Source of the DNA: Boletus sp. NGJ
Lineage: Eukaryota; Basidiomycota; Agaricomycetes; Boletales; Boletaceae
Assembly (NCBI GenBank): GCA_019096195.1
Contig: JAGTXK010000051.1
Span: 1 to 64,000 of the forward strand
Direction of reading: 5' to 3'
DNA length: 64,000 nt
Shown: positions 2,266 to 48,064 of the stretch, in pieces
Position numbering within the stretch: position 1 is the first letter of the stretch
Layout: every line of letters begins with the position of its first letter
Program-made: the position numbers and the translations under genes
The notes under the pieces: generated by a model
Told to the model about the DNA's origin: nothing
The model's input: the letters and a program-made list of their open reading frames with translations, nothing else
Database searches by the model: none

Positions 2266-2310
2266 CAGTGGATTCGCTCTGAGCTAACCAAGGCTGATGA
2301 GGCCAAGCCG

Positions 2311-9007: not shown

Positions 9008-9170
9008 TACAGGAATAAAATAACGCCTACTGCTCAGTGGAGACTGAACAGCGAGGACAGGAAATAAATGAGTAACTGACGTCTGGGTAGTAGCGAGAAC
9101 TCATTGAGGTTCCTTAGCGGTTTTTATGGTGGATTTGCTCTGAGCTAACCAAGCCTTGGCGAAGCCGTGA
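6864..9170. repeat. Tandem duplication, laccase block, copy B
   Basis: Counterpart of 1-2310. Identity is unbroken by my reading up to about 9128 and ends by about 9170, where the sequence after GAGCTAACCAAG departs from copy A. Confidence 0.95.
9121..9128 (-). promoter_or_regulatory. TATA-like box of laccase copy B
   Basis: Minus-strand CATAAAAA about 114 bases upstream of the ATG, in the same place as in copy A. The two promoters differ directly upstream of it. Confidence 0.3.
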
Positions 9171-25825: not shown

Positions 25826-26288
25826 GCATGAAACAACATCTGTCTTACCACCACCAACATCCTGGTGAATGGACTTTGTGCAGGTCCTCCATGTAATAAC
25901 GGTGAGTCCAGCAAGTGGTAGTAGGTACTTATTAGAAATGAAGGATGAATCAATGACACCCAAATTCCACCACTGTGAATAGTAAAGTCACTATACATTA
26001 GTGTCCATATTAATAATAGTTAATGTTCCTGACATTACAAAAAAGTGTCTGGCATTAAAAATTACTATCCAATGTGACACTAAAATGGACATTTGGTCAA
26101 CTAGGGATTAGTGTCCTTGTCATTGAACCAGAGTGCCATCCACCGCAAAATAAGTAAATAAATGACCACAAGCTTGGTGTGGTTTACTGTCCTTAATAAC
26201 CAATGATGCCCTTGATATCTATGATTCAACTAGTAAAGAGTTGAAATACATACAGTAGTAATACTATGTTCAGATCAGGGAAATTAAA
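25826..26288. other. Unassigned DNA between the copia and KDZ elements
   Basis: A+T rich, with no gene recognised. Bases 26282-26288 (AATTAAA) resemble 46458-46464 (AATTGAA) on the far side of the KDZ element and may be a worn target duplication. Confidence 0.4.
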
Positions 26289-27982
26289 CACTTCAGTCAC
26301 CCTCCCAGGGGTATCTCATAGGTCCATCTCTCCCACTAGAGGGTTGGACCTATGAGGTGCCTAGGATCAGGGAATTCCCAATAATATGGGCAAACTGAAT
26401 GATTAAGGACCTTTATTAGAAAACAGGTTGGTTTTTCTAGAGCAGTTTCCAAAGGGAATTCCCAGTGCCCAAAGAGAAGAGAGAATTCCCATATTGACAG
26501 GGTGTTAGGAGTCCTGCTGTGCTTTATTGCAAATGTAATATATGCTATTTAATCATGATTTGAAACTTGAAGGAATTTCTTGTACTAATAAAGAGGTTAA
26601 TTATTGAAACGATCACCGATTATACCACCTATTTATTAGCACTCCCACCTACACTTTCGTACTACCTACAGATGATACACTTGCCAACCCTCACCCAACC
26701 TCCATCCTAGCCTCATCTCGCACACACCTAGAGTAGCCACCTATCGTATCCTCCCTCATACGATACACCACGCGACCACATACACCCACGTACACTTTCA
26801 TTAGTCGTACCCTCGTCATACCCACTACACTATGACACCAAGTAGCCTTACGGCTAAACCCTGGCCTCACAGCCACAAGCAAGGCCCGCACACCTCTAAA
26901 CTACGCCACCCCTGTGGACCTACCTGATGCAGCGCTCGGTAGCCACACTGTGCATCACGATGCCCTGCACGATGACAACAACCCCTTTGTCACGTATACA
27001 CTCGTCACACGCACAACACCCGTAGACAGTACCCGATGCAGTGCTCGGTACGCTACACAAGTACTAATCAGGAGCTCGCCTCCAGATCCTCAAATCCCCG
27101 GCTCACGCCATAGATCACCCCTCGCACTGCCAAGTACTAATCAAGCCCATGCTAGATTAACCCAAGTACTGATCAGGTGAATGTCAGATCACAACCCCTA
27201 GACATAGACAAGACCTGATCTATCACCCGATACGATCTCGTCTCAATACCAGATCCAACGATCACCCCATGCGATGCCTTACACATCAGTCTTTCATTTC
27301 TTCTTTCGTCTCTCATTCCCATTCCTATCTATTAGTTCCTCTTTAGATATATCACACGTAGCCACGCCAAGAGCGCTCCGGACTACCTTTCACTTACATG
27401 TGCATACCACACGCATCTCATTCCACCGTTTCTCCCTTTCGCCATTGGACACTAACATTTCCTCGTTCCTGTGATGTCATACCCAGTACCCTACGACGTC
27501 ATAGCATAGCACGGTCCGTGTGCCACTATCAGTAGTATATAAGTAGCGGTAGAGTACCATGTTTCGCTTAGTCTTGAAATTGCCTTTCTCTCTGTCGCAT
27601 ATTGCTTTAGTTAGCAATGCTTCAGATATTGGGTCTAGGTTCTTTCTTTCATTCATTGCAAGTTCCTTTCAATTATTCATTTGGAATCAAGATAAAAAGC
27701 CTTTTATAGGACTCAGCAGAGATCTGGTGATTGTTCTCCACAGTAGAGAAAATAAGGGCAGGGTACTAAGTAATAAATTTTTATCCTCTGCAAAGCATAT
27801 ACTATAAAATGAGACAGCTTGACTATTGAATTTAATGAGATTGGGATTATTTACAAGATAGCAAAAGTTATTGAGAAATGAGGTTTTGTTCTCAAAGCAT
27901 ATGCTATGAAATGGGGTAGCTTGACTGTTAAATTTGATGAGAATAGGGTGTACTTAGGACAGGCAAACTAGTAAGTGATATA
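26289..27982 (+). repeat. Left terminal inverted repeat of the KDZ element, with a solo LTR inserted
   Basis: The arm is 26289-26604 plus 27677-27982; the part between is a solo LTR. It pairs with the reverse complement of 45208-46457. It contains GGGAATTCCC-like palindromes at about 26393 and 26455, and two copies (reverse orientation) of the subterminal word CAACAGTCAAGCTACC near 27803-27830 and 27906-27933. Its inner edge is where a Tc1 element entered a TA. Confidence 0.9.
26605..27671. mobile_element. Solo LTR, 1067 bp, of an unclassified LTR family
   Basis: Starts TGAAACGATC and ends CCTTTCA, with the 5-bp duplication ATTAT at 26600-26604 and 27672-27676. The right KDZ arm at 46135-46150 preserves the empty site, which proves the insertion. 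It is richer in G+C than its host DNA and contains a TATATAAG motif near 27536. The internal part has been lost by LTR recombination. It differs from the gypsy LTR in sequence and length. Confidence 0.8.
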
Positions 27983-29012
27983 CAGTGGCTCAAAAAACTG
28001 TCCACATGTTTGGTCATTTTTCACTAAACGTGTTATTCCCCAATAACCCCTAGCCCTTACTCTAACATATAGGTGTATGAAATAAAGCACTGACCATTGG
28101 CTTTCTATCCATCAAGGCTTTAAGACATATGAATAAGAATTGATGAACTGGCAGCCATTTCAAAACAATGACTCATTCGGACAGTTTTTTGACTCTAAAT
28201 TTATCTAGATATCTAGTACTTGGTATGAGCTCCTTTGGCCTTGATAACTGCTTCAATCCTTCTAGACATACTTTCTATCCATTTCTGACACTGTTCCTCA
28301 TCAATCTTTCCCCACTGCTCCACTACTCTTTCCCACAATTGATGAACACCTGTAGAAGCATTTTCATAACCTGAGAGGCATCTCTTGAGGTGATTCCAAG
28401 TATGTTCAATGGGATTAAGGTCTGGAGGTTGTGCAGGCCAGTCCAGAAGCTTGATTCCTTGCTCTTCAAACCATCTTTGGGCTCTTTTAGAGGTATGCTT
28501 GGGATCATTATCTTCTTGAAAGATAATGTCATCTTCTGGAATTCCAGATTCCTCCATGCTTTGCGGCAACCCCTGCTCCAATATGGCCACATACTGTTCA
28601 GCATCCATTCTCCCCTCCATCTCACTCAAAATCCCCACTCCATTCCACCCCATACCATCAGTGAACCTCCTCCAAACTTGACTATGCCTTGGACCTCTCT
28701 AGCAATTAGCCCCTCTCCCTTTTTTTTCCACACATACTCTTGCCCATCTGACCCAATCCTATTGATCTTGGTCTCATCTGACCATATAACTCTCTTCCAG
28801 TCCTCCACAGTCCAATGCTGGTACTTGAGAGCAAAGGCTAATATTCTTTTCTTGTGACCACTAGAAAGTAGTGGCTTTTTCTTCTTTACCACAGCCTTTA
28901 AGGAGGCTTCCTTGAGAGTATTTCTAACAGTCTGAGGACAGACAGGGGTATCAATAATGGTATTGATGTATTGGGCAGCATGAACAGCATTCCTGGCCTT
29001 GCCAGTAATAAT
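27981..29012 (-). mobile_element. Tc1/mariner element 1, truncated
   Basis: Begins at a TA with CAGTGGCTCAAAAAACTGTC and has a terminal part of about 220 bp (27983-28204). A transposase follows on the minus strand. The other end is missing: similarity stops near 29012 and KDZ accessory-gene sequence follows. The 220-bp end recurs alone at 37263-37478. Confidence 0.85.
28213..28990 (-). pseudogene. Tc1-type DDE transposase 1, truncated and frameshifted
   Basis: Cut-and-paste transposase. The catalytic core is recognisable: VIWSDETKINRIGSDG (first Asp), IIFQEDNDPKHT (second Asp), PPDLNPIEHTWNHLKRCL (Glu), the DD34E class. It ends SMSRRIEAVIKAKGAHTKY. There is a frameshift near 28640 (after LMVWGGMEWG), and the N-terminal helix-turn-helix (about 85 residues) is absent. 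Related to the transposases at 34908 and 41274 but a distinct subfamily. Confidence 0.85.
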
Positions 29013-29109
29013 TTATTCAGTTTGTTCACACATGATTTGCAGGCCATGTTCCCTTGTTGTGAATTCAAGCCCTACTGCTGACCAGGTCAAGATAAGCCAT
29101 ATCTGATAT

Positions 29110-31161
29110 ACAGACAAGAGGGCTGAGCTAAGATCATTTGAAGAACACATTCATGAATTTGATGCCAACATCATTGCATATTGTGACCCATACATGATAA
29201 CATCCCCAAATGCTGATTGGATTTCAAAATCTCACTGTTTTGAAAATGAAGAACTACATGCTTGTGCAGACAGATGTTTCAGATACCAAGACTGTTTCCA
29301 GTGGCCACAACCTTACAGCAAGAAGTTTGAATACACTGTTTGCACCCTAAATCTGCTGAAAGCCAAAGCTCTTGAAGATCCATCAAAGATGCTCTGGGAG
29401 TTTTGGACACCATCTGAAGATGATTTTGAGCTCATTGATCTGCAATCTCCATTCTGTGTCAGCAAACTCAACCATGATGTATACTACCATCTCTATCAGC
29501 TGTATAACCTAGGCCAAGTGAGCATCAATCATTGGAAGGTGAAGCGGGAGGGAAAGAAAGACATAGTCACTGGCATGTAGCTTCATGCCCAACATCTCCT
29601 CAACATGCTTAAACACCATCCATTGACCTTTCCCAATGTTGTCCTCTATGTCACAGAACTTCAGCACTATCTACTCAACATTACCGCCCATATGTGCTAC
29701 ATCAATAACCATCAGTTCACTCTCACATATTCTGATTTCTCCAAATCCACCAATGACCTATTGATGGGGTGTTTCACAAAAGATATCACCACTTGTGAGC
29801 AGCTCTGGCACACTGGCATTCCTGTCTGGCTTATCTGTTTCCTACAATTCGTCCCACAAAATATTAACATTGTTAATGTTGTCTCTGTCACATGCCCCAA
29901 CCACATCATACAAAAATATTTCATGCACAACACAATCATTACTGTCTACCCAACACTACATCTTGGTCCTGGGGGTACTGACTGACATTTGAACACACAG
30001 TGCACCTTCTGCACCCAACTTATTGAGCCTCCTGCTATCACCCCTTCTGACATTGTTCCTCAGCAAGGCCTGGTAGCCTCTTCATCACAAGGCACATCAG
30101 GTGGCCAGGTGCAAGAAAAAAAAAAAAAAAGTGTAACATTGTTCAGCAACAAATGTATTCCTTAGCCAGTACATATGTTTCTATCTCCATTGCAACAAAA
30201 TGTGTTCTGATGCAGCATTACCCTACTTTCCATAGCATTATACAACAGAGCCCACAACCCAAAGAGTGGTTGAGACAAATGGATAGAGCTTGACGCCACC
30301 AATATGCTGCTAGCATTCCCCCAATGGATCACTATATTTAAATGAGTGGACAAAAATCCCACTAGGATCAGAAGCAGAATGGTGGATGCCAGCTATCATT
30401 TCCCTGAGCCTATGCTTCTTATTACACCTTCATCGCCTCAGCAACAGAAATTGTTTTGCACCAACTGGCTAGCTGCTTGCCCACTTTGGATCAGTCGTAT
30501 TGAGCACAACCCTCTGTGCCCACTTCCTGTGCCTCAGACTTGGTGTGACATTCTCAACTCTATTCCCTCAAACATTGTGGCTGAGAATATAACAACCAGA
30601 TCAGCACAGGAGAGGCTAGCTGCTAAGCTGCTTTTTGAAGATACCCTTATGCATCTGCAAGGAGAGACCTGGGCAGGGCAGGACTCTGTGCTATGGCAGA
30701 ACCAGACAATTGCTATCACAACATTTGAAGACCCGCCTGCTCATTTGATTCATTCCATTCCATGGGAGATCTATGAGCTCAGCTTCCACTATGAACTGTT
30801 GGCCCTAGATCATGCAATGGTTCCAAGGTTGTGGATAGAGGCACCCAAAGAGAGAATCAAATTATTACACAGCATCTTTCCAGGGGAGTCAGGGCTTGTG
30901 ATGTGGGAGGAGTCAATGCTGACAATGGAGCAAGAGATGTGGGCCTTGCTGGACATTGCCTATCCTTTCCTGGAGAGCTGGTGGAAGTTGCTGTTGTCAT
31001 GGCCTCAGGCTCCATCTCACTTGCAATCACCAATCATGCAGGAGTCTTTCACATCTGTTGTGCAATTTGACATGCTGATGAGTGCATGTATGTTTTACAC
31101 TCAAACCTTCTTTGATGCATTTGGTAGGCCTCCAGTTGTCTTGCACTGTGTTCCTATGTGA
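29110..31161 (+). pseudogene. KDZ accessory gene A, uncharacterised, with in-frame stops
   Basis: Largely one reading frame, broken by stops at about 29578 and 29984 and unclear between 29990 and 30346, where a short A-tract lies (30116-30130). Landmarks: CADRCFRYQDCFQWPQPYSK (near 29265-29325), LMGCFTKDITTCEQLWHTG then IPVWLICFLQFVP (29760-29855), and a second half (30346-31161, open) with VWLIEAP-like blocks and ending FFDAFGRPPVVLHCVPM. From memory it resembles a large family of uncharacterised agaricomycete proteins with a GCFT..., PVWLVR... and a F.GR.P.V.H end. No catalytic motif is visible and I assign no function. It lies upstream of the KDZ transposase on the same strand. Confidence 0.6.
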
Positions 31162-31499
31162 TGAGTTTCATGTTGGAATTTTTTATATATGTCAATGCCA
31201 TCAACATTCCTATCTCCCTTTTACCCTGCATACACTGGTTTGATTAATGCATAATGAGTTTTGCTTTTATTATTATTGAGTGATGCTGACATGCTAACAC
31301 TAACTTTGTGCACTCAGAATTCTATAGCACCAGACAACAGTCCCTTTCCTTGATGCTTTCTCCCCTTTCCTTCACATACTGGGACTATGTCTCTCTATGT
31401 ACTGACTTTGTGTCAAATACACCTCTGCCCATTGACTACACATCTCTGGCCTATCTTTGACTTTGTGTCAAGGTATTCTTCTTCATCTCAATGGCTATT
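31162..31499. other. Spacer between KDZ accessory gene A and transposase
   Basis: A+T and C+T rich, with no recognisable protein; it may contain promoter DNA for the transposase. Confidence 0.3.
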
Positions 31500-34400
31500 C
31501 ATTGTCCTCATCTTTGTGTATCTTGCTCCTTATCTCCAGTAAAATTGTTTGGTGGTGGCAACCCTACTCATTCCACCCTTCCAGCTACATGGACTAGTCA
31601 TACAACAGTTGGCACATCATCCACTTGATATACTTTGTGTCAGCCAGACCTTCTGGAGAAGTCCCACTTTCATAATTTCAACCTTCATCTTCTTTGTCAT
31701 GCCCTGCCACATCTTGCACTACCTGGTCATCAATACCTCTCACAAGGTGTTTTGAATAACCATCATCCATGCTCTCCCATCCACAATTCTGCAGATCATG
31801 CTCAGGACAGCAATACATTCATTGATACTATTCAGATTTTTGGCAATCTTCCACCTGTTTGAACATCTGCATCTTAGAAACGACAGATTCAATACTATTG
31901 GTGGTCACAAGATGTCATCCCAGCCATCCTAAAGCCCTATATGCAATATGTCCGTGTGACTATGTCACTTTCCACCTCTGCAACTGTAGATGCCATCCAT
32001 ATCCCACCATGTGATGGAGTCTCATGTCTTCCTAGACAATTAGAGATAACATGCTTGTATTTTGATCATGAGTCGCTTTGTATCTTTTTGATGATATGCT
32101 TTACAAACATTCAACCAGGCCTTGAAATTATTACATCATCCATTTGCTCGTATCACCCAGTGCTCTCACAACTTGTGGCCCTTGGCCTCTTTGGTTGTGC
32201 GCCAGTGTGACCTTCCCTTACTGTCAATTTCTGTATACTGGAGCTGGTGAAGGCATTGTTTGTCTGTATGACACCCAATATGTCTGGGTGGACAGAGGCA
32301 TTGGAGGGCTTCTTGAATGACCACAGGTTTAAATTAGCAACAAATATATGTTGTTTTTTTAAGTGCAGCAACAATTTAGCTCAATTTCACCTAGGATAAT
32401 TTCAGGCAGTGCTTCAGTACTGCCTATCACTGGTACCTTATCCTTACAATTGTGGTGGCAGAACATGTATCTGATCTTCTCTGCTGTCAATCACCTACTC
32501 TTGATTCTGAGGATCAGAATATGTCCGACAGTGAAAACCCACAATCCAGTGAATATCTGAGAACACAGTGTCCATTGTGCTTTGGAGGGAAGGATCAGAG
32601 ATGCAATTGTGATGGAAACAATGAGTATGTTTCAATTTCATTCATAGTATATCTTACTTATGAATGTTTAGCATTGATCCAATTGTTTGTATTAATGCCT
32701 GCTTCACCCAGAAATGTTCATGCAGTGCTTGCAATAATGTCATTCAGGATCTGCCAAATCCTACACAGACTATTTTCATATCTGAATTGGATGTTAAAGC
32801 CATGAAAATGCGTGTTGAGGAGCATTGTGATGGGAATGCAGGTCGGAAGAGATTGTGAATGCAGGCTGCAAAGGGAGATGGATGTGAGAATGGCATGAAA
32901 ATTCCGATATCTGTTCTCAATGCTTGTGGAGACTCATTTGTTGCTGCCGATGAGAAATGCAAGAAGGCCAGCACATGCTATTTTGCTGACACTGGGCTTA
33001 TGGCAATGCTTTGCTGCCATGATCATGTGCTATGGCTTGTCAACATGACTTTTGCAGGAGAAAAACAACATTACACCCTCACACTCATCCAACACCTCTT
33101 TAATCACCTTTCTTTGGACATATCAGTGGAATTACTTTATGATATTGGCTGTCAGCTAGAATGGAGTTGCCAGAAATGGGGATTTTTGTTGGAGGCGATT
33201 CTCTCCCACCTTACCTTTGCCATTGCTGTGTTTCATGCATATGGCCATCAGTGGGCATGTCAAGTTATTTATCACCCTCAGAAGTGTGTCAGTTTCAGCC
33301 TCTCAGATGGAGAAGGATGTGAGCATTTGTGAAGTTTCCTGAAATCCCTCATCTCTGTGCTTCAAGTATCTGGGGTATGTTTAATTATTGTCTCAAGGTC
33401 TTCCTCACCACTAACTAATGTCCCTTTGCAGTTTCATCAATGGCTTTTTGTGCTTGACTCTCAGGTTTGCCACCTGTATGTCAAGTCTCTTGTGTGTTTC
33501 AGTGATTGGTTGCACCAGCAGTGGATGCATTATTGGAAGAAAATGGCTGCAGCTTCTGAGGCACTTGTATTACTGGAGATTGAGAAATTTGTCCTTCAAG
33601 ATCAATGGGCAGCCCAGATTTCTCATCAAATAGCACCTCCAGTTCATACATTGTTCTTACACTCTTCTATTATATGTTCTTATCTAACTGTATGTTATTA
33701 TCTGTGCTGCAGGACAGGCAAAGAACAAGGCTAAGGAGAAGATAACCAGGGTTCTCACACTAGAGAAGACCTTTGCATCAATAGATCATTACCAATGATT
33801 TGGAGCACCAGCTTGTCATGGACAACAGTGGTGATATCATTGAATTAAATATTTGCCTGGTTGAAGCAAGATGAAAGCTGTTGATGACTGCTGCCCTTGT
33901 TAAAAAGCTCTGGGTGGCTTTAGGTGTATCTGATCATGCCAACCTTGCTGTACTCAAGCATAATGTATATTTGCAGGTAAGTGTAAGTAAATTGCAAATC
34001 ATGTAAAGACTGATTGGATTTGGTGCCAGGTATATATAAATGCTCATGAATTAAAAACTCGCATACGGGAGAGGCTTTGTCAATGCAAGTTTGAGTTTGA
34101 ATGTTTGGAGCATGCCTACCACACCACAGTGGATGGTATGTCTATGCTATTCACCTTGGATACTGAAGCTTAATATGCTCTTTATGATGTAGAGAATTAA
34201 CTACAGGACAATGTTCAAGCAGCTATCAAGTGACATGAATCAACCATTCTCAAGCTTATCAGCAATTATAATACTCTTTGCAAACAGCTGTTGACACTCA
34301 TTGATGGTGGCACAGCACCTCCTAGGACAGTTGTCCCTTCTAGTATATCTTGTGAGGGTATATTCCAGCTGAATGTTGATGATGGACATATGGCAAGACA

Positions 34401-34664
34401 TAGGTCTTGATGATGCCATTACTGATCCACCACTTTGGCTTGCTGATGAAAATGTGTGTATTGATATTCACCATCTGCTAGAACATGACTGGTGTGGAGA
34501 AAGAAGCTAGAGTTTGCCATGAATATTGTATTCTTCAGGAATGGATGATTTTGAAGTGAAACAATCTTCAGAAAGCAAAAAATAAAGCAGGTGAGTTGTT
34601 TGCTACTTTTAATGTCTTAAGGATATTCTTATATCTAGCATGTTCTAGATGTAGATGAACTATA

Positions 34665-36275
34665 CAGTGACTCCCAAAACTATTCCAATACCTAATCCTA
34701 ATGCAGTGCGCTTTGTGCACCGCAAACACCTGTGGGAATGTCGCTTGGCTTTGGTGGGACAAATAATCGTACATACCCTTGGCTACCTATGGGCGCTTAG
34801 ATCATGTGATTTGATCCAGAGGAAGTGGAGATATGGCTATTTTGAAACACCAACTACACTGGAACAGTTTTGGAACTTTTGATTATCATAAGGGTATTTG
34901 GTATATATCAGTACTTGGTATATCCTTCTTTGGCTTTAAGCACTACCTGAACCCTCCTAGGCATGCTTTCAATCAATCCCTGACACACCTCAGCTGGTAT
35001 CTCATCCCATTTCTCCTGAGTTCTTCTCCACAACTCCTCTATTCCGTTAGGAGGCTCCTTATAGTCTGCCAGCTTCCTTTTGAGGTGAAGCCAGATATGT
35101 TCTATGGAATTGAGGTCAGGAGACTGTGCAGGTCATACCATGGTCCTAAATTCCTACTCTTCCAGCCACTTCCTGACCTTTTTGCAAGTATGCTTGGGAT
35201 CATTATCTTGTTGAAAGATGACATCAGAAGGATTCAGATCATAGAACTCCAAGGAATCCTGGAGTTCATCCTTCAAAATTTGAAGGTAGAGATCACCATC
35301 CATCCTACCATCAATCTTGGTTGCATAGCCAACCCCATCCTAAGCCATACAGCCCTACAATATCAAAGAACCCCCTCCAAACTTCAAAGTCCCTTCAACT
35401 AATCTGTCACTAAGGCCCTCTCCTGAATTTTTCCATGCCCATTTGCAACCATCTGACCCAAGATGATTGATTTTGGTCTCATCAGACCATACCACCTGCT
35501 TCCAGTCCTCTAAAGTCCAGTCTTTATGAGCATAAGCAAAGTCCAACTGAGCCTTGTGATGTTTGGTAGAGAGTAGTGGGCATTTGGACTTGACTATGGC
35601 TTTCATACCAATCTTTTTCAAATGACAACGAACTATATTAGGATGGAGAGGTTGATTGGTGATACTGGAGAGAGCTTTGGTGACCTGAACAGCATTCTCT
35701 GCCTTATTACTGGAGATAAGGTGAACAGCATAACAGATATTAACAGAGAAAAGCTTTGATGGATGGCCTCCAGCAGACTTTTGAAGGTCAGAACACTCCT
35801 TGGAATGAAGCTTAGAGATGGTAGCAATGCCAATACCTGTACTAGAGGCAATAGAGTGGATGGAATGGCCAGAATCAAGTTGAAAGAGGATAGTGTTATT
35901 TTGAGTGGCAAAGAGAGATCGCATGATGGTAGTGGTTAAGAGTCAAGAAGTGTGGGAACATTTTCAGACTTGACATAATATTTATATGTATATCTTTGTT
36001 TGTACCACCAAACAATAGCAATTATCCCCTTATATCATAAAGATTCTAATGCTCACATCAAAAGTTTCAAAACTATTCCAATGTAGTTGCTGTTTTAAAA
36101 TAGCCATATCTCCACTTCCTCTAGATCAAATCACATGATCCAAGCGCCCATAGGTGGCCAAGGGTATGTACTATTATTTGTCCCACCAAAGCCAAGCGAA
36201 ATTCCCACAGGTGTTTGCAGTGCACAAAGCACACTGCATCAGGGTTAGGTATTGAAACAGTTTTGGAAGTCACTG
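34665..36275 (-). mobile_element. Tc1/mariner element 2, both ends present
   Basis: 1611 bp between TA dinucleotides (34663-34664 and 36276-36277). The terminal inverted repeats are about 215 bp and start CAGTGACTCCCAAAACTATTCC. Within each, the inner edge repeats the outer sequence in inverted form (TGGAACAGTTTTGG). It sits in the C-terminal coding part of the KDZ transposase. Confidence 0.9.
34908..35924 (-). pseudogene. Tc1-type transposase 2, frameshifted
   Basis: From ATG at 35924 a helix-turn-helix region (SIHSIASSTGIGIATISKLH) and the linker are intact, then the catalytic start VVWSDETKINHLGSDG. The frame is lost near 35355 and the rest, including the second Asp and the Glu region, is in other frames. 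The end RYTKY is readable at 34910. Closest in this window to transposase 3 (shared KAENAVQVTKAL block). Confidence 0.85.
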
Positions 36276-36526
36276 TATCAGTTAGATTTGCATGAGGTTG
36301 AATTATGTAGGCTATGTGTCTGGTGGGAGACACAAGTTCATCACATACCTTGTGCTTGGGCTATGCCAGATAGCTGGGGGCCTTCAAGTATCACTCTTGG
36401 CCACACTGCACTTGCCATGCATCAACCACAGAGTGCCCATGGTAAATACAAGCTTCTGATTGTTATTGGACTACATGCTCAGTATATTCCTGTTGGATAG
36501 CTTCTCATCATATAGAAGTAAAGTTT

Positions 36527-36811
36527 TTGCCTGTGAGGTTGATGGTTCATGCTCATTTTGTTGCAAAATATCAGCCTAGTGTGGATGAAGTGGAGGAAAG
36601 AGAGTTGACTGAGGAGAAGGAGGAGGAGGGAGAGAGAGGAGGAAATATTGGTGATGATGAATTGATGGCAGAAGCTGAGGATGCTGCATTAGCCTATGAG
36701 TATCAACTTGATGGGCAAGATGATGACTTGGATAATGATGTGTTTTCTGAGTTCCCTAGTATTATAGATGATGATGTTTGTACTCCACCTTCTAAGAGGC
36801 TGAAAATCTGA
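36527..36811 (+). CDS. Small acidic open frame after the KDZ transposase
   Basis: 94 codons starting MPVRLMVHAHFVAKYQPS, then a strongly acidic Glu/Asp stretch (about residues 20-80), ending in the basic SKRLKI. It may be a terminal exon of the KDZ transposase or of a separate protein. Acidic tails are common in KDZ-associated proteins (recollection). No function assigned. Confidence 0.4.
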   Translation: MPVRLMVHAHFVAKYQPSVDEVEERELTEEKEEEGERGGNIGDDELMAEAEDAALAYEYQLDGQDDDLDNDVFSEFPSIIDDDVCTPPSKRLKI

Positions 36812-36839
36812 ACATACTTTGCTTTTCATCCAGTCTTGT

Positions 36840-37262
36840 CATTGCAATTCTTTATTCCCAGCTTCATCTTTAGCAGCATTTTGGAATTTCCATCTTCACA
36901 TCTAGTAATCATAGGGAATTCCCATTGGCTTTCAGGAATTCCCATCTCCACATCCAATAATCATAGAGAATTCCCAATGGCTTTGGGGAATTCCCACCTC
37001 CCCCATCCTTATCAAATTCAACAGTCAAGCTACCCCATTTTATAGCCTACTATGCATTACATATTACACAAATATCCAGGAGTCTTAGGGAATTCCCAAC
37101 AGCTCTAGAGAATTCCCCTTCCTATATTCAGAAGTCTTGGGGAATTCCTCTTGGCTTTGGGAATTCTCCTCTCTACCTCTAGGAATAATTGGAAATTCCC
37201 ACCTCCTTCCATCCTCATTACATTCAACAGTCAAGCTACCACATTTTATAGCCTAATATGTA
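36840..37262. repeat. Internal cluster of KDZ subterminal repeats
   Basis: Carries GGGAATTCCC-like palindromes (about ten between 36910 and 37200) and two copies of CAACAGTCAAGCTACC (37019 and 37225), each followed by a CATTTTATAGCCTA-type word. The same units occur in both KDZ ends, so an end-like array lies in the middle of the element. It may be a remnant of an older, shorter element end. Confidence 0.75.
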
Positions 37263-37478
37263 CAGTGGCTCAAAAAACTGTCCGCATGTTTGGTCATTTT
37301 TCACTAAACGCATTATTCCCCAATGACCCCTAACCCTTACTCTAATATATAGGTGTATGAAATAAAGCACTGACCCTTGGCTTTCTATCCATCAAGGTTT
37401 TAAGACATATGAATAAGAATTGATGAACTGGCAGTCATTTCAAAACAATGATTCATTCAGACAGTTTTTTGACTCTAA
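37263..37478. repeat. Lone 216-bp Tc1 element 1 end (MITE-like)
   Basis: Almost identical to 27983-28204 and in the same orientation, next to a TA at 37261-37262. It starts CAGTGGCTCAAAAAACTGTC and ends with a near inverted copy (GACAGTTTTTTGACTC), so it could fold and be mobilised as a miniature element. No transposase follows. Confidence 0.8.
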
Positions 37479-37904
37479 GTTTTGATTACATATATTGGAC
37501 CCTAGTATGCTGTAATATGATTACATACATTTGGTAGGGCTTCTATTATGTCACCATTATGTAACTGAGTATCAGACAACATATATAAACCCCATCATTC
37601 CATGTTTATTTTCCCATCATCACCATGAAACCCATTTCCATCTCTCAAAGAAACAATATCATCTCTCTCTCCTCTCATGGGCTTTCCTCTAGGAAAATCT
37701 CTGCCCAAACTGGCCTAGGGATGTGAAGAAAAGAATGAGTAGAATGTATACTGATAATGGACTACAATATATTTTATCCTGAGTTTAAATATACAATGCA
37801 TGACTTAAAGAAACAGATGCTGTGTGAGACATGTGGATTGAGGTTTGTGAGAGATCAACTCACTGAATGGTATCCAAAACTGGAAGACTGCACAATGTTG
37901 AAAT
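37479..37904. other. KDZ interior, unassigned
   Basis: No gene recognised. A short frame at 37757-37978 containing CETCGLRFVRDQL runs into the foldback repeat and is probably chance. Confidence 0.3.
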
Positions 37905-38826
37905 GGAGTATAAGTATGAGTACGACTTTTGAGACTGAATATACTCACATTTGCAGTAGAGTGTTCTTGGAAATATGAAAACACTTTAGGTGGAGCTCAG
38001 TGTACAAAATGAGGAATGAGCAAGAGAAAGAAAGATTGAGTGAATACTTACAAAAGGAGAGGAGTTGTAGAAGATGTGTTCAGAACATGAGGAGATACAC
38101 CCTTAAAACAGTCTTCAACCCTGTTGGTGATACTTCCATGAAAATGGTGGCACCAGGGCAACCATAAGGATGTGAAAGTCCTAAGGGTGCTTCAGCTCAG
38201 AGATGCATAGTCAACTGAGTGAAGATTCAAAAGGCACGAAGCCAATCACAATTCAGACGATCTTGAAGGGTTCTTGCAAAAGCATGGAATAAGAAGCATG
38301 AAGGAAGAAGCAGTCTTGCTGGACATAAAATCATTGTGGGAATTCCCAAAGGAAATTCCTAGTCTTTCAGATGTTTTATAGTTCTCCCATGCTTCTCTGT
38401 TTGTACTTATTGCAACTGCCACACATATTTTCAACAACTCACTGTTTACCACCTGCTATATACTCCTCAACCATCAATGCTTAATTGACTTCGTGCCTTT
38501 CAAATCTTCACTCAGTTGACTATGCATCTCTGAGCTGAAGCACCCTTAGGACTTCATGTCCTTACAGTTGCCCTAGTGCCACCATTTTCACAGAAGTATC
38601 ATCAACAGGGTTGAAAACTGTTTTGAGGGTGTATCTCCTCGTGTTCTGAACACATCTTCTACAACTCCTCTCCTTTTGTAAGTATTCACTCAATCTTCCT
38701 TTCTCTTGCTCATTCCTCATTTTGTACATTGAGCTCCACTCAAAGTGTTTCCATATTCCTGAGAACACTCTACCACAAATATGAGTATATTCAGCCTCAA
38801 AAGTCATACTTATACTCATACTCTAT
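37905..38826. repeat. Foldback repeat of about 0.92 kb
   Basis: Two inverted arms of about 340 bases (37905-38246 and 38483-38826) around a spacer of about 236 bases. The arms share long runs such as GAGTATAAGTATGA, GGTGTATCTCCTC and ATGCATAGTCAACTGAGTGA, with scattered differences (my estimate is about 90% identity). No transposase inside and no clear target duplication. It may be a long-armed MITE or foldback element, or an inverted local duplication. A transcript would form a long hairpin. Confidence 0.85.
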
Positions 38827-39962
38827 ACATCTTGTATTAATGGAGAGCCTCCAGAGGGCAGTGGCAGCACAGACTTTCAAGAAACCTACACAACAAGAGA
38901 GCAGTATCAATGCGGCAAAGAATGAATGGTTTTTCCAACCACTCTGTGTAAGTAATCCTAGCACAACTGTCTTTCAATCACTGATAAATTCATCTCCTAG
39001 CTCTTCTCACATCAAATGTTGTGAGCCAATCCTAGCTACAATCTTGCTGACACTGTAACCTGTTGCTTAGTGAGTGTGCTTTTTTTTTTCCATCAACAAT
39101 TGTCCTAACTGCATGTTTTAGCCTTTCCAACTCCTTCCTGTGCAATGTGATCAGTATTCCAGATGAATACTTTGTTGTGATTCAATATTGTACTGAGATA
39201 ATTCACATGATTCCACAGTAACAAATACTCCCCCACCATGTTCATGCAGCACCTATTAGTCTATCTACATTAACCTGGTTCAGTTTTATGTTTCAGGCCT
39301 TAATCTTGTTGCCTGCATAGACACCACTCATTTTCTATTCTTATCCAGGACAAATGGATTGTTTCTGTTATAAGCAGTGTGTCATGAGTGGATTGCCATC
39401 AGGAGGACAGGGTCACTTTGGGCAGTGCATAAACCTTCTTTCCATTCCATTGCTGTCAGCCTGACTTCATATAGAACTTATATCCTGAGGTGGCTGAATA
39501 GATTCAACTAGTCTTACATTCCTTCTTTTTGGTGTGACTTCATATCCACCTTGCATTGCAGCAGACTGCATGTCCCAAGTGTCACTGGTCCACACATCTT
39601 ATATCTATTAGACTGAGAATTCTACCATTCAATGTTACCATCACCACCTGCTCTGAGTGGCCAACCATCTCGCTGTGCAAAAATAGCACACAAATATATA
39701 CAGCTGACAGTTTGTTTTCATTTATATTGCCACTCTGTTGTCATTAATCAATGCTATCAGCACAGGAAATATACTTGGACTAAAAAGTAGATTAAGGTAC
39801 GTGATAAGAACAACAGTCTGAATTGCAAAACTAACAATACTTGCCATCTAGACAGGAGCAGCACCTGTAGGTGACAGATAATTGTATGGCCTCACTGAAG
39901 TTAACACACTAGAAGGTTAACAGTACCCCCAATGATGCCACACATTTACCAACACCACAGGT
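38827..39962. other. KDZ interior, unassigned
   Basis: About 1.1 kb of A+T-rich DNA with no protein I can recognise on either strand. Confidence 0.35.
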
Positions 39963-40922
39963 AGGATGTCAAGTCACTTCAGACCATCACAATTTAGATG
40001 ATGAGAAGTTCCAGGATGCTTCCATTGATAGAGCAATGCCAGGAGTTCACTCTCCTGAGAGAGAATGTGAGGAAGAGGAAAATGGCAGCCAGTCAAATGA
40101 GGTCGACAGTGAGCTGGCAGGTAATCAGACCAGTGAGACATGAGGTACTCAAGCACTCCTTGGAAACACCCAGATGTATTATGATGCCACCAATAATGGG
40201 CCTGCGAGGGTATGCACCACAGGTAATACCTAATTCCTATCAACAGACTATGCATATTGACCACATACAAGCAACAGGTATCACTCTCAGACAGTAGGAG
40301 AAGAAGCGCTATGTACTGGCGAGTGAAGAAGGTATAGACAACGATGAGCTTCCCCACAGTAAATACAATCTGACTCCCAGTGGTTCATGCTAATGACACT
40401 ACTGACAGATGAATCAGGTCACAATCATGATTGGGAGCCACATGTTCAGCATGAGTTGGAGGAAGAACAGTGGCCAGAGGAGGTGACGTTGAAGAAGGTT
40501 TTAAGAGTTGAGCAACAGACAGTAATGTTTCATTATCACAGGCTTGCACAAATGGAATTAGAATTGAATGCTGTTGCTCAATCTCAATCCTTTGATGCCA
40601 ATAATGGACCATTGCAATTTTCTGAATCAGACAAAGAAGATGTGATTTGTGATTCTGATTCTGATTAGTCTCATGACATGGATGAGCAAGAGGACCAATG
40701 CTGTGGTGTGTCATGACATAAAGGGAAAATGGTCCATCATTCAGGTCCACTCCCTGATGAGGCTTGCCAACAGGCTCATGAACTTGGCGACAACATTATA
40801 AAGAATCTCAAACAATTGGCAGTGCAGTATGGAAAGCCTGTTAAGCAGATCCTTGAAGAAGCTGGCCTGAGAAAGCTAATGACCCGAGCTGAGCAGCAGT
40901 GGAATCTGCATCAAAAGTGGTA

Positions 40923-42539
40923 CAGTGACTCCAAAAACCCTTTCCATGCTAACCCTCAATGTGGTGCGCAAAGCGCACCACCACACACTGTGGGGACTTT
41001 CGCTTAGCTTTGGTGGAGTTATAAATAGTACATACTCTTGGCTATGAGATTGCTTCCTAGGTCATGTGATTTGGTCCACAGGCTGTGGAGATATGATCAA
41101 TGTGAAACAGTAATACCATGGAAAGGGTTTTTTCACTTTTGAACTGATGACTAGGATCTTAGTCAAATCATATCATATTTGCCATTGTTTGTTCATGCAA
41201 ACAAAGATATACATATAAATAGCATGTCTGAGCTTAAAAAAGTTCACACACTTCTTGATTCTCAACCACCACCATGGTCAAATCCCTCTCCCTTCTCCAA
41301 CAAAGCACTATACTCTCTTTGCTTGATTCTGGCTGCTCTGGTGAAGCCATTGCCAAGCAAACTGGTGTCAGCCCTTCTGCCATATCCAAGCTTCGCTCCA
41401 AAGAGCGTTCTGCCCTCTCCCAAAGCTCCTGGGGGTCGTCCTTCCAGGCTTTCTCCCACCAACATTTGTCATGCCCAACATCTAATCACCTCTGGGAAAG
41501 CTGAAAATGCTGTCCAAGTAACCAAAGCCCTCACCAATATCATCAACCAACCCCTCTCTGCCAATACTGTCCGCCTCCACTTGAAGAAAGCTGGTATGAA
41601 AGCTGTGGTGAAGTCCAAATGTCCCCTCCTCTCTGCTAGGCATCACAAGGCTCGCTTGGATTTTGCCTATGCACATAAGGATTGGACTATGGAGGATTGG
41701 AAGAAGGTGATATGGTCTGATGAGACCAAAATCAATCGCCTAGGGTCAGATGGGCGTAAATGGGCATGGAAGAGGGCAGGTGAGGGGCTTAGTGATAGGC
41801 TGGTGGATGGAACCCTCAAGTTTGGAGGAGGTTCTCTGATGATGTGGGGCTGTATGACTTGGGAGGGAGTTGGCTTTGCTACTAAGATTGATGGTAGGAT
41901 GGATGGGGACCTCTACCTTCAAATTTTGAAGGATGAGCTTCAGCAAACCCTGGAGTATTATGGTCTCAATCCTCCTAACATCATCTTTCAGCAGGACAAT
42001 GACCCCAAGCATACCTGCAGGCTGGTCAAGAACTGGCTAGAGGAGCAAGAATTCAGTACTATGGTGTGGCCTGCACAATCTCCTGACCTCAACGCTATTG
42101 AACATCTCTGGAGTTGTCTGAAGAGGAGCCTTGCAAAGCATGAAAACCCCCCTAATGGAATTCATGAATTGTGGGAAAGGGTTCAAGTGGAGTGGGATAG
42201 GATACCAGTGGAGGAGTGTCAGAAATTGATTGAAAGCATGCCTAGGAGGATTCAGGCAGTGCTTAGAGCAAAAGGAGGCTATACCAAGTACTGATAATAT
42301 CCAAATACCCTTTTCAATTCAAAGGTGAAAAAACCCTTTCCATGGTATTACTGTTTCATATCAATCATATCTCCACAGCCTGTGGACCAAATCACACGAC
42401 CTAGGGAGCAATCTCGTAGCCAAGAGTATGTACCATTTATAACTCCACCAAAGCTAAGCGGAATTCCCACAGTGTGTGGTGGTGCGCTTCATGCGCACCA
42501 CATTGAGGGTTAGCATGGAAAGGGTTTTTGAAGTCACTG
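40923..42539 (+). mobile_element. Tc1/mariner element 3, nearly intact
   Basis: 1617 bp flanked by TA (40921-40922 and 42540-42541). The terminal repeats are about 222 bp, CAGTGACTCCAAAAACCCTT outermost, with an inverted copy of the same word (AAGGGTTTTTTCAC) at their inner edge. Inserted in the coding sequence of KDZ accessory gene B. Confidence 0.92.
41274..42294 (+). pseudogene. Tc1-type DD34E transposase 3, one frameshift
   Basis: About 340 residues. The N-terminal helix-turn-helix from MVKSLSLLQQSTILSLLDSG to ISKLRSKERSAL is in one frame and the rest, from GGRPSRLSPTNICHAQHL, in another; the switch lies at a G-run near 41430. The catalytic triad is complete: WSDETKI, FQQDNDPKHT and DLNAIEHLW, with 34 residues between the second Asp and the Glu. 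It ends MPRRIQAVLRAKGGYTKY. Only one break is visible, so this is the youngest-looking Tc1 copy here. A frame-restored sister copy elsewhere in the genome is plausible. Confidence 0.9.
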
Positions 42540-44747
42540 TATGCATTCAGTCATCTGATTGCTGAGGGTGGTAAGTGCATTGCTCTTCAGTAGTGTAACT
42601 CATTGACCTTCCAACAGAGAGGGTCAAAGATTACCACCTCCAACAATAAGAACATTATAAAGCTCATGAAGATGACAAAGAATATAACAAGATATGGGAG
42701 GAGATACAAGAACATGAAAAGGCTATTGTTCAGGAATAGGAAATGTCTATAAAATCTCTTGCTGCATTAATTGAGGAAGTCCAAGAGCAGTTTGCAAAAG
42801 AAGTATATGCCAGCTGTCATGTCATGATATGTCTGCTCATTATCTTTGGTTGTAGGCTTCTACTTGGAGTTGCCTGGATGGTGTAGAGGTGATGGGCATA
42901 GTGGTGTACAAAGGCCATAATGCAGCTGCACAGCATGTTGCTGGGTGGTTTGGTGGATACACCTTTGTCGGAAAGTTAATCAATAGCCATGAACTCCAGC
43001 TGGCTAAGTGGCTGGACTACATTACAATGGTTGTCAAGTATGTCCACAATGTCCTTCATTTTTTGTTCCTAATGGAGTTGTTCAGATATAAGGAGATTGA
43101 CCCATCTGCAAATGTTCCAATCCCTGAGTTTGGTATTCATGCAAACATGAAGGGTAACAGATCAAACACTAATGATGAATTAGACCATGGTCCAACCAAG
43201 GGGTTCCATAATTGGAATCAACGTATCATGCTAATAATGATGGGTAGAAAACTCAGTATGTTTTTCTTATACATTTTTTATCATGATATTCACACAGCAC
43301 AGAGAAATTTGGTTACACAGATGGCAAGAATATTCCATGGCAATCATTTGATGATCTCTTGTATCACTACAAATTAATCATTACTAACTGGCCTGCTGGA
43401 GTTGCTGCCCCACCCATATGGGTGCCCCATGATGCAAAAGTTAATGAACTCATTGCAGTCATTGACCCTTACCTTCAGTGACACTCGCCAAGCCTTCATA
43501 CATGCCACATTGTACCTAATGCTGGTAGGAGAAGATTTGCTAATGTGAAGAACAAACAGCCTCAACTTATGATTCCTGATGTAGAGGTGTCAGTTGGTAT
43601 ATGGACACCAGGTCTGTTTTATTTTTTAATTTGCTTGTTTAACCTGTTGCTCACTTTGAATTATAGAATGGTGTAATTGGGTGGAGAAAAATGACCCAAG
43701 AATGTTTACTATACCATTGATCACTGACATGGAGTCTCAACCACTTTGCATTCTTAGGCAGTGCCACAAGTTCCTCCAGAATGTACCTCATGAAGTCAGC
43801 ATTCCTGCTGAGCCAGACTCAAGGTGGTCCTCCTTGTCATCATCAGTGTCATCATATGAAGATACTGCTTTTGTGACTCATAAGAAGGCTAAGGGTAAAG
43901 TTAAACTGCCTTGCCATGATCAAATGGGACCTCCTCCTATCTACTCTTTAAAATCTCATGTACAATCATGCAAGCATCACCATGATGAAGAGGAGTCTAT
44001 TCTAGAGTGCCCCACACAAAGCTAGAGGCATGATCTAAGATATATCATGTGATCCCTCCTTCATCTTTCAATGTTCATTTTTTTTATGGGAATCACACAC
44101 CCAGCATGCTCATTGACAGGTGCAAGTGGTTATAGTAATTCTTACATATGCACAACTGATGGTTCTCTATATGACCTGATGCCCATGCAGATGAGAGGTT
44201 TCATTATTGTATGCCACCCTAACAGTTAGTGGTCATCTCATGTATATGATAATGAGTTAGACCTGTTTAGACAAGCTGAGTGCTCTGTGGGTAATAACTA
44301 CTATCAATCTGAGGGCTTTAGAAACATAGAGTGAGATTTTAACTCTATTTTTTGATTTGCAAGTGCTGATGTTATAATACCAGCTACAATGAGACCACTC
44401 ATCCAGTGTAAGTGTGTTTTCTGACTGATTACCTTATAAGTCTCCTCCCATCTAGTAACTCTTTTCAACCTCCACATTCTACTCATTAGATTCCTCCAAC
44501 TGAGGCACCTGTGGTTCATTCTTGCCATCTTGATTCTCCATGGCACCAAGCTCCTGCCAGACCACCCACTTCACAAGGAATGTATCCTTCTCATTCACCT
44601 TCATATCAAAGACAAAGCCATGTACTGCAAGATGCTTCTCCTGTTGCAGGCCCATCTCGTGTCCAATATGTTGATGTGGGTAGTGCTGATGAATATGATT
44701 TATCTGAATCTACCAGACATCACTACTATAACTTATACTATGACTAA

Positions 44748-45207
44748 GTTTTCTTAGATGCCAATGTAATTCTCCTTCTATGAATAATAATGAGAATAGT
44801 GTTATCTTGTCCTTGTTGAGGTGTAGTCCTGTGCATGTGTGATGATGACTGTCACCTTTTTGTGTCTCCTGGTGGATGATTATTAGTTGTCCTTTGTGGA
44901 AATTCTCCAAAGCTATCAGGAATTCCAAATAGCTCTTGGGAATTCTCCTCTCTACCTCTAGGAAAAAATGGGAAATTTCCACCTCCTTCCATCCTCCTTC
45001 CATTCAACAGTCAAGCTACCCCATTTTATAGCCTACTATACATTACATATCACACAACTTTAGTGGTGTATTAGATTTATTGTATCACTTACCAGTTTGC
45101 CTGTTCTATATACCCCCCATCCTCATCAAATTCAATAGTCAAGCTATCCCATTTCATAGTCTACTATGCATTATATATTACACAACTTCAGCTATGTATT
45201 ATATTTA
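44748..45207. repeat. Right subterminal repeats of the KDZ element
   Basis: Inside the right inverted repeat, with GGAATTCC-type words at 44900-44945 and copies of CAACAGTCAAGCTACC-type units at 45005 and 45133, each followed by a CATTTTATAG word. The unit spacing is about 128 bases. The next copies (45261 and 45990) lie in the inverted repeat proper. Confidence 0.75.
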
Positions 45208-46457
45208 GTATATCACTTACTAGTTTGCCTGTCCTAAGTACACCCTATTCTCATCAAATTTAACAGTCAAGCTATCCTATTTCATAGCATATGCTTTGAG
45301 AACAAAACCTCATTTCTCAATAACTTTTGCTATCTTGTAAGTAATCCTGTTATGATTCTTACCTATGTTCTCCTTTTCCCTCATCCGCTCCTGTCATCTT
45401 CTCTGTTTTCTCTTATCCTCTTTGCCCCCGTTCCACTCATTGGACTACTCATGTCAGCTTGTTTAGGCCTCTGCTAACGTACCTACCAGTTCCCCTTGGC
45501 CCTACTGGCTGATTACCTTTTACTTATGACTCATGCAGAACTTCTTTCATCTCTGCTTTCCATTCCACGGAGTTCCACCAGTTTCTATACCTTATTCATT
45601 CCTTTCCATTACGGCTCATGGGCTCCCACACCTTACTTATACAGTATAAACCGAACCCTAGATATAATGTCCGACAAGTAGAACCTACTTGATCTACCTT
45701 GAATCTACTTGCACGTTGTCTCCAGGATCTCTATGAGTCCACATCCTCCTTTTGACTGGACACTAGTCCTTTATCACTTGAACTCCAGTAGCTTGCCTAA
45801 ACTACTTGTCTTTGTGAGACTCATCATAGTTCTCAACCCTTGTATAGGAAGACCCTTCACATCTGCATCTCTGGTGGTCCTCAACACCACTCATCCCTTG
45901 TCAACATCACCTAGTTGGTGTGTGTCACCTTCAAGTCTACGACTGTTTCTCCCCAAGCCAGTCGTAACAAATCCCAATCTCATTAAATTCAATAGTCAAG
46001 CTGTCTCATTTTATAGTATATGCTTTGCAGAGGATAAAAATTTATTACTTAGTACCCTGCCCTTATTTTCTCTACTGTGGAGAACAATCACCAGATCTCT
46101 GCTGAGTCCTATAAAAGGCTTTTTATCTTGATTTCAAATGAATAATTAACCTCTTTATTAGTACAAGAAATTCCTTCAAGTTCCAAATCATGATTAAATA
46201 GCATATATTACATTTGCAATAAAGCACAGCAGGACTCCTAACACCCTGTCAATATGGGAATTCTCTCTTCTCTTTGGGCACTGGGAATTCCCTTTGGAAA
46301 CTGCTCTAGAAAAACCAACCTGTTTTCTAATAAAGGTCCTTAATCATTCAGTTTGCCCATATTATTGGGAATTCCCTGATCCTAGGCACCTCATAGGTCC
46401 AACCCTCTAGTGGGAGAGATGGACCTATGAGATACCCCTGGGAGGGTGACTGAAGTG
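45208..46457 (-). repeat. Right terminal inverted repeat of the KDZ element, with a solo LTR inserted
   Basis: The arm is 45208-45347 plus 45975-46457, complementary to the left arm with about five differences, all transitions by my reading. The palindromes near 46255-46300 and 46370 mirror those of the left arm. Confidence 0.9.
45348..45969 (+). mobile_element. Solo LTR, gypsy type, 622 bp
   Basis: Starts TGTTATGATTC and ends AGTCGTAACA like the gypsy LTR at 13116, flanked by AATCC (45343-45347 and 45970-45974). The left KDZ arm (near 27850) shows the uninterrupted site. The internal region was lost by LTR recombination. A related but distinct subfamily. Confidence 0.9.
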
Positions 46458-46749
46458 AATTGAATGCACAACTTCAGGTGACTTCCAAAACTGGAAGGTG
46501 TAAGACCCATTAACTGTTAGACTAAATAACCCAACTGCAAAAAGATATTATTGCTTGAAAACTCCCATCAAGGTATGCAAGCTACCCATCCACAAGCACC
46601 CACACAATGGTAAGACCAAGCCGAGATTCAGTGCACAATTGTCACATTTTTGTCATTGTCACATTCAAGTCGTGAGGCGAGTGCAGGCAGGGGCAAGGTG
46701 AGTGTAATGATGATGACGACACCACGATCGCGTTGGGTGAGAGGGCGGC

Positions 46750-46960
46750 AGCAGTGGTGTCCGAGTTATTGAACCGTCGTTTTCAGGCGAGAGGAATGAC
46801 GACATGACACACGCAGTTGTGTTGCACGCATCCACCTCGGGACCAGTATAAATTTTTGCATCCAATAACTCGGGGGCTGCAAAGCAGAATGAACTGCAGA
46901 AAGTAGAAAGACGTTCGGCAGGGTCATATAAACAAAATCTGATCGCTCCTTTGCCTGGTT
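46750..46960 (-). pseudogene. Fragment of a Kin1/Kin2 (PAR-1/MARK)-like protein kinase
   Basis: Minus-strand 46830-46931 reads [12 protein letters not shown] then [20 protein letters not shown], the activation loop and APE motif of fungal CAMK-type kinases (usual form TFCGSLYFAAPELLNAK.YTGPEVDVWS). The DFG before it and the kinase C-lobe after it are missing, and a Cys-rich unrelated sequence follows. It is a relic of about 35 codons, perhaps captured by a transposon or left by a deletion. Flanked by the KDZ right end about 300 bases away. Confidence 0.65.
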
Positions 46961-48008
46961 GTACATCAATCCACCAATCCATCAATGAAGGCATGTCGAC
47001 CATTCAATATTCAGTATGCACTGCTCACCAACGTGTTCAACACCATCTGCTGTCACTCGTTGACTTGGGTTCATACTGAGCCCACCAGCGTACCCGTGAA
47101 GTTTATGATTACCTTCCGATTACTCCGATCAACCGCCGGTAAGAGGTACCTCAAGACCAACGCGTACCCAATCACGTTCGACACGTTCGACGTTTCCAAT
47201 CGTTCAGGCTCGAACGTAAACGCAGTGTCCAGCGCTAGATTCTACCATGATATTGAGATGAATCAACACATTTTAAACGAGACAATTTGCGACGTTGCTC
47301 AAGAGGCTGGTCGTGACGGATCTGAGACGAAGTCCTTGTGCAAGACGGGAAAATGAGCTCACGGACGAGGTAGTAACATACGCCGTTGAGGAGCGTCAGC
47401 TGTGTAAGCTTCCTCAGGCTTCTTGAAATGTGGACAGTGGTGGAGGTGCACTAGTATTCTGAGATGAACCTTAACTACGATTTAATTAGTAAGCAGTGGC
47501 AGAATAGTACACGACGTTTGTATTTCCAACAATCACTGGAATGCTAATTATTCCTGTGCTCGGGTTTCGAATGCTTGCCAGGCCAGTTTTTACTATTCAT
47601 TCTTGCGATCTACTCCAGATAACGAAGACTAGATATTTAGTTGCAATTCCTGCAGAGTATCACTTTGGTGCTAACCATCGCTAGATGCACAAACACAGCT
47701 CGATTGTCATGATTGTGATTACCAGTCTGATTCGCCATTGGCTGGTGTGCGGCGCATCCTGTTAAACAGGTATACGATGAAGCAAGGTAATTTCTTGGTA
47801 CGTCCGCGGTGATTTAATTTCTACGTTACGAAACTACTGCCCCGCGTTTAGTCCCTCGTGCATTTGCCAGGCTCGTAAGTACCCACACAGTTCCATGAGC
47901 ATGTGGAACTGAAGCGGCATGCATAACACAAGAATACACCGACTAACGGAACATTGCGGCCCTCCACATGCCTCTGAAACAAATTTCGGCGGTTCTCGGT
48001 GTGCCCGA
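46961..48008. other. Intergenic DNA upstream of laccase 3
   Basis: An unrecognised 123-codon plus-strand frame (46985-47356) has no family signature; I regard it as hypothetical at best. The rest, about 650 bases, is ordinary A+T-balanced upstream DNA. Confidence 0.3.
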
Positions 48009-48017
48009 ATATAAGAG
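48009..48017 (+). promoter_or_regulatory. TATA-like box of laccase 3
   Basis: ATATAAGAG, about 50 bases before the start codon. Assigned by motif and position only. Confidence 0.4.
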
Positions 48018-48064
48018 TGCAAGCGTGCCAAAGCGGCGCAAGCCCCCTCCTGTAACATTCAAAA

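Follow-up and report, generated by a model that had tools for sequence, protein, structure and literature searches.

Probable arm-to-arm copying in a decayed copy of a multicopy KDZ transposon family

Kyakuja elements, KDZ transposons of Agaricomycetes, have 7-bp target duplications and 5'-CA..TG-3' ends (Kojima 2025; PMC12730594), and in the available portion of that source Kyakuja-1 and Kyakuja-2 of Laccaria bicolor are reported without terminal inverted repeats (TIRs) and with a TET/JBP gene, while Zisupton and Dileera are given 8-bp duplications. KDZ1 of Cryptococcus neoformans, in the portion available of its description (PMC12810828), is an active element of approximately 11 kb with 241-bp TIRs and 8-bp duplications, for which at most one methylated CpG is reported per copy. 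The KDZ transposon copy analysed here occupies 20,169 bp (26289-46457) of the window, by which we mean the whole 64,000-nucleotide stretch of contig JAGTXK010000051.1, and has the ends CACTTCAG..CTGAAGTG, i.e., CA..TG. Its inverted arms are nearly identical although its genes are ruined. Taken as a whole, the evidence makes it likely that this is an old, decayed member of a multicopy KDZ family with long inverted arms, and comparison of its sequence with other copies indicates that copying between the arms in its ancestry is the probable cause of their likeness.

The outer arm was used as the query in the assembly of the window (32.8 Mb in 141 contigs, labelled with C-numbers), where it gave at least 27 matches grouped into at least 17 loci, both counts being lower bounds; C59 and C127, counted as two of the 17, may be one. 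At C59:583113-583376 and C127:666-957, 523 bp of flank are shared at 100% beside the same arm, as would be seen for a haplotig, an overlap or a recent duplication. An earlier note on this DNA had proposed that its reading would fall if no other copy had the same ends. They were found at these 17 or more loci, five of them with both ends: the window copy (20.2 kb), C81 (9.6 kb), C109 (14.9 kb), C3 (17.0 kb) and C103 (15.5 kb). The end CACTTCAG is present at 15 of the 17 loci including the window copy, with C119 starting CATTTCAG and C20 starting TGCTTCAG. Duplications of 7 bp flank three of the five two-ended copies, perfect in C3 (CTGTGGG) and C109 (TCCCATC) and with one change in the window copy (AATTAAA/AATTGAA); among the same five, C103 has no target duplication, nor does C81, which has palindromic flanks. 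C3, C103 and C109 have a common layout, consisting of a left arm, part A, part B with the KDZ gene, and a right arm. The arms measure approximately 620-720 bp in four of the two-ended copies and are longer in the palindromic C81.

The family is a member of the KDZ superfamily, based on a PF18758 domain together with defined ends and target duplications. The Pfam match lies at 32859-33332 (E 1.7e-37, with a bit score of 129.7 where the cut-off is 26.6) and, with the inverted arms and an empty site described below, bears out the earlier identification of a KDZ transposon. The same note regarded so large a KDZ element as unusual, a view that finds no support here: approximately 7 kb consists of nested insertions, leaving a copy of approximately 13 kb whose size is not odd, the four other two-ended copies span 9.6-17.0 kb, and KDZ1, of approximately 11 kb, is published.

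The arms of the window copy pair as three blocks of 317 bp (1 mismatch), 178 bp (1) and 140 bp (3), and differ at 4 of 622 positions in the aligned blocks. This alignment, made without the inserts, agrees with the approximately 99% over about 622 bp noted earlier, and the insert coordinates then given were right to within 5 bp. In a tree of 20 of the 22 arms (C36 and C107, with fewer than 250 aligned letters, were left out; an arm joined a block only at a coverage of at least 90%, so that 16, 21 and 19 arms entered the three blocks) the two window arms form a 99/99 clade. Ten states are common to both and absent from the other 18 tree arms, and eight of these are also absent from six arms that are partial in block 1. 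Private states shared by a copy's own arms number zero in C3, C109 and C103, and one in C81.

The other copies indicate that such likeness is not a product of movement. The left arms of C3 and C109 are identical (0/605) at different insertion sites, yet the left and right arms within each copy differ (9/594 in C3 and 13/594 in C109, or 1.5-2.2%). Transposition thus does not equalise the arms, and their likeness does not clock mobilisation. The window arms differ from the C3 and C109 arms at 32-38 of 594-604 positions, from C41 at 13/594, and from C117 at 19/622; had they diverged from one another as far as from C41, the Poisson probability of four or fewer differences would be 0.0024. Outside CpG-prone columns, the window copy and C3 differ at 33/594 positions in the arms (5.6%) and at 232/5081, 98/2222 and 57/1189 in the body (4.4-4.8%), and the corresponding body values against C103 and C109 are 4.4-5.2%. 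The arms of the window copy are thus not better preserved than its body; close likeness is confined to the pair itself. The earlier note had named equal divergence of arms and genes as an outcome that would count against its reading; such divergence is found relative to the arms of other copies, but not between the two window arms. The apparent paradox of perfect arms with ruined genes therefore mostly dissolves.

The 99/99 clade, the private shared states and the arm pattern of C3 and C109 support the suggestion, one of two in the earlier note, that the arms are kept alike by conversion. The sequence of one arm would have been copied onto the other by gene conversion or by a template switch between the inverted arms. 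A literature search aimed only in part at conversion, and covering titles and the openings of abstracts, found no report of arm-to-arm conversion in KDZ elements, a weak negative.

The body clearly exemplifies heavy loss of CpG from a transposon, beside host genes that are rich in it: the ratio of observed to expected CpG (o/e) is 0.06-0.17 in the 2-kb bins that cover 28001-46000, compared to 0.8-1.1 for 1-12000 and 46001-50000, regions containing genes that we take to be laccase-like. A retrotransposon-like stretch on the left has values of 0.18-0.34. At 356 sites in three body segments that are CpG in at least one of the window copy, C3, C103 and C109, these copies keep 32, 206, 291 and 249, respectively. 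In part B the window copy differs from C3 at 291/549 CpG-prone columns, compared to 4.57% elsewhere. At positions conserved in C3, C103 and C109 it has 506 C-to-T or G-to-A changes versus 102 in reverse, the direction being assumed with no outgroup, and the rates of change are 183/407 at CpG, 84/750 at CpA, 99/824 at TpG, 52/441 at GpG, 43/517 at CpC, 26/622 at CpT and 14/536 at ApG. Among C3, C103 and C109 there is no TCG preference. The pattern is that of a body that would have lost most of its CpG by C-to-T change, presumably following methylation; the assembly contains five matches to the DNA methyltransferase domain PF00145. The arms have little CpG to lose: 12 of 22 arms counted, including those of CpG-rich copies, contain 0-1 CpG per 600 bp, and the window arm blocks measured contain none, so CpG loss hardly touches them.

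With seven frames that are open in C103 as the reference, stops number 12 in the window copy (over 4.3 kb), 3 in C3 and 2 in C109, and frame-shifting gaps number 17, 12 and 15, respectively; part of the gaps could be intronic or belong to C103 itself. Together with three Tc1-type insertions, these lesions confirm the ruined genes reported earlier. The assembly holds 88 KDZ matches, of which this family accounts for ten places in nine elements; none of the ten, several of them truncated, contains an unbroken domain. No accessory protein has a Pfam match over cut-off.

Several observations weigh against arm-to-arm copying and CpG loss as a complete account. Two of the ten private states recur in partial arms (one in C103_L and C107, one in C59), and two of the remaining eight are in adjacent columns and may be one event, which leaves about seven private independent events. 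The arm test comprises only 622 columns, the six-row clade that holds the window arms has no settled branching order, and C41 and C117 have one readable arm each and hence no arm-to-arm distance of their own. The sequences do not reveal the donor or the direction of the copying. C3 and C109 show no non-CpG difference in the left arm or in segment A1 but are 70/5049 apart in part B, which suggests that different copies, too, exchange sequence by copying or recombination; the window arms may therefore have been converted from a third, lost copy. As for the body, only 2 of the 12 stops are at codons with CpG in C103, and seven are single C-to-T or G-to-A changes outside CpG. CpG loss consequently explains the extra divergence better than it explains the stops, and we reduced its role accordingly from that of their whole cause. 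Some of the 356 CpG sites may also be gains in three related copies rather than losses in the window copy.

The right flank of the element (46458-49900) recurs in inverted orientation at C74:109580-113056, on the same contig as the window. At this paralogue both flanks of the window element join directly with a single AATTGAA, which demonstrates the insertion and its 7-bp duplication; the empty site is thus from the same contig, with no other strain involved. The divergence from the empty paralogue is 44/3420 for the right flank and 31/456 for the left. As these distances disagree, dating the insertion by the flanks was dropped, and we give no firm age.

The flanks bear on a second account, the other suggestion of the earlier note, which we consider possible but less probable, in which the genes were already broken when a working relative recently moved the element in trans, and the likeness of the arms reflects that movement. 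It would fit the lack of an unbroken domain among the family's KDZ genes, and the retention of only 32/356 CpG sites is perhaps more loss than the insertion age allows, judging by the right flank. The left flank makes this age bound weak, however, and cut-and-paste carries arms unchanged, as the moved C3 and C109, with their 1.5-2.2% arm differences, illustrate. None of the inactivating lesions in the window copy can clearly be traced to an ancestor in common with a copy inserted elsewhere; one stop that it shares falls at a CpG site hit repeatedly. Two candidate shared lesions were set aside: a frame shift common to C3, C103 and C112, where the extra bases fall within four columns and are not the same in all three, and a stop common to the window copy and C36, an element that resembles the window copy no more closely than it does C3.

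It is improbable that one arm was replaced wholesale by the other through inverted duplication, even though the palindromic C81 shows that such a structure occurs in the family, unless it is an assembly artefact. In the window copy, part A still lies next to one arm, and part B together with the right subterminal region, in inverted orientation, represents what remains with the other; this arrangement suggests that the inner flanks derive from different sides of the family layout. Past the first 622 bp, the arms agree only over short stretches, at approximately 84-96%. Only the outer 622 bp are thus equalised. C81 itself (C81:57563-67142) is built from two right halves that are approximately 96% alike, and its flanks also form an inverted repeat, 99.3% over 558 bp; a fold-back duplication or an assembly artefact is possible.

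Selection for arms that the transposase still binds is very unlikely and was rejected, since for the nearly CpG-free arms, alike as they are, divergence from C3 equals or exceeds that of the body once CpG-prone columns are set aside, and each arm carries a large insert.

The element inserted adjoining a laccase-like gene block and produced the 7-bp duplication, as the empty paralogue shows. On the reading preferred here, its arms have evolved at about the same non-CpG rate as the body. Beyond CpG loss, the body would have been further worsened by other C-to-T changes, insertions and deletions, nested Tc1 insertions and an 8.5-kb inversion. The two inserts resembling solo long terminal repeats (LTRs), one per arm and not shared, suggest that the copying preceded them, and both are probably later than its last occurrence. 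Each has many relatives in the assembly. The left-arm insert, with its CpG o/e of 0.93, is probably young relative to its host element; for the right-arm insert o/e is 0.37 (measured on 45353-45970). Several relatives of the left-arm insert form inverted pairs of approximately 7 kb (for example C89:79629-86644, C114:14830-21925 and C35:4411-11965), which is odd for an LTR, so we call it solo-LTR-like rather than a proven LTR; the insert could instead be an arm that belongs to a different element.

The internal order of the window copy (Table 1) is best read from sequence alignments with other copies as an inversion of 29017-37482. One breakpoint would lie inside a Tc1 that had entered the right arm and whose last 220 bp are now at 37263-37482, and the other at the A/B junction, which is intact in C3, C103 and C109; what is now the left arm would then correspond to the right arm of the other copies. 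This reading does not account for approximately 240 bp (37483-37720) and part of the Tc1. Recombination between two inverted Tc1 elements was rejected as the route, as the pieces have the same orientation and fit one Tc1 cut by a breakpoint. The Pfam search for Tc1 covered the element at 40923-42539, and the other two Tc1-type elements are named by similarity to it.

Table 1. Features of the KDZ transposon copy, with window positions
Feature	Coordinates	Strand	Remarks
Left target-site duplication	26282..26288	.	AATTAAA, one change relative to empty-site AATTGAA
KDZ-type DNA transposon copy	26289..46457	.	Inverted arms, end at other loci, empty site
Outer block, left arm	26289..26604	+	No CpG; by layout would be R arm of other copies
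Solo-LTR-like insert in left arm	26605..27671	+	1,067 bp, TG..CA, 5-bp duplication ATTAT; CpG o/e 0.93
Inner blocks, left arm	27677..27982	+	No CpG in 27672-27984
Tc1-type element, one end gone	27983..29016	-	Arm at 37263-37482
Putative internal inversion, 8.5 kb	29017..37482	.	Part B and right subterminal region; from copy alignments
Part B, with broken KDZ transposase gene	29017..34664	+	Inverted relative to part A; 89-90% identical to C3, C103, C109
KDZ transposase domain	32682..33371	+	Two in-frame TGA
Tc1-type element	34665..36275	-	TA duplication
Displaced arm of the Tc1 at 27983	37263..37482	+	Marks far inversion breakpoint
Part A: accessory gene region and left subterminal repeats of family layout	37721..45207	-	Reverse complement of C3 layout
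Palindromic insert	37903..38826	.	About 0.9 kb, arms 274 and 71 bp
Tc1-type element	40923..42539	+	TA duplication; within frame open in C103
Open frames of unassigned function in part A	42856-43377; 43660-44025		No Pfam match
Inner block, right arm	45208..45347	-	
Solo-LTR-like insert in right arm	45348..45969	+	622 bp, TGTTA..TAACA, 5-bp duplication AATCC
Middle block, right arm	45975..46141	-	
Outer block, right arm	46142..46457	-	No CpG; by layout would be L arm of other copies
Right target-site duplication	46458..46464	.	AATTGAA

The window also contains a direct duplication (1-2292 and 6864-9153), 99.9% identical over 2,292 bp, with a laccase-like gene. Another such gene follows the element on its right side (approximately 48487-49706); a copy of it in inverted orientation, 98% identical, lies approximately 60 kb away on the same contig. 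A further broken KDZ domain starts at the right edge of the window (C74:63931-64675). Elsewhere in the family, the left flank of C3 and the right flank of C103 are homologous (93% over 562 bp), and both copies have a 575-bp insert at the same internal place; the relationship probably results from duplication and inversion, or from recombination through the arms, rather than from two independent insertions.

In this one genome, how alike inverted arms are does not give the insertion age of a DNA transposon, unlike in LTR pairs, because arms keep old differences through transposition, as in C3 and C109, and can be equalised later, as is probable for the window copy. The locus adds a KDZ family in which long TIRs go with 7-bp duplications and for which an empty site is available. 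Should the host be an agaricomycete, it also adds CpG loss in a fungal group where hypermutation has been reported as not detected. We suggest only speculatively that, in long-armed KDZ elements, arm-to-arm conversion, combined with nearly CpG-free arms that escape methylation-driven decay, preserves matching ends that could still serve in mobilisation well after gene death; genomes would then hold a reserve of dead KDZ elements still movable by a working transposase.

With respect to known decay systems, the strong C-to-T and G-to-A excess in a repeat body resembles repeat-induced point mutation (RIP) or methylation-driven decay. Neurospora-type RIP acts mainly at CpA, whereas here CpG is strongest and CpA is second, with TpG and GpG at the same level. 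The family also departs from TET-positive KDZ transposons: the assembly has 23 matches to TET/JBP (PF12851), 18 of them over cut-off, and none of the 23 is inside a family member, in a search that did not extend to distant PE-type proteins. Other KDZ genes of the same genome lie approximately 2.6 kb from an opposite-strand TET/JBP gene (for example C133:42932-46788, C56:10564-14088 and C5:23765-27319) and resemble published TET-positive Kyakuja.

Among the described KDZ groups, as far as the available portions of the two sources characterise them, Zisupton and Dileera have the transposase in common with this family but 8-bp rather than 7-bp duplications. KDZ1 is likewise a large element with long TIRs, and differs in its 8-bp duplications and its activity. 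The closest likeness in features alone is to Kyakuja, with which this family shares a KDZ transposase, a 7-bp duplication and CA..TG ends; unlike the L. bicolor Kyakuja elements, it has arms of approximately 620-720 bp or more and copies with no TET/JBP match inside them.

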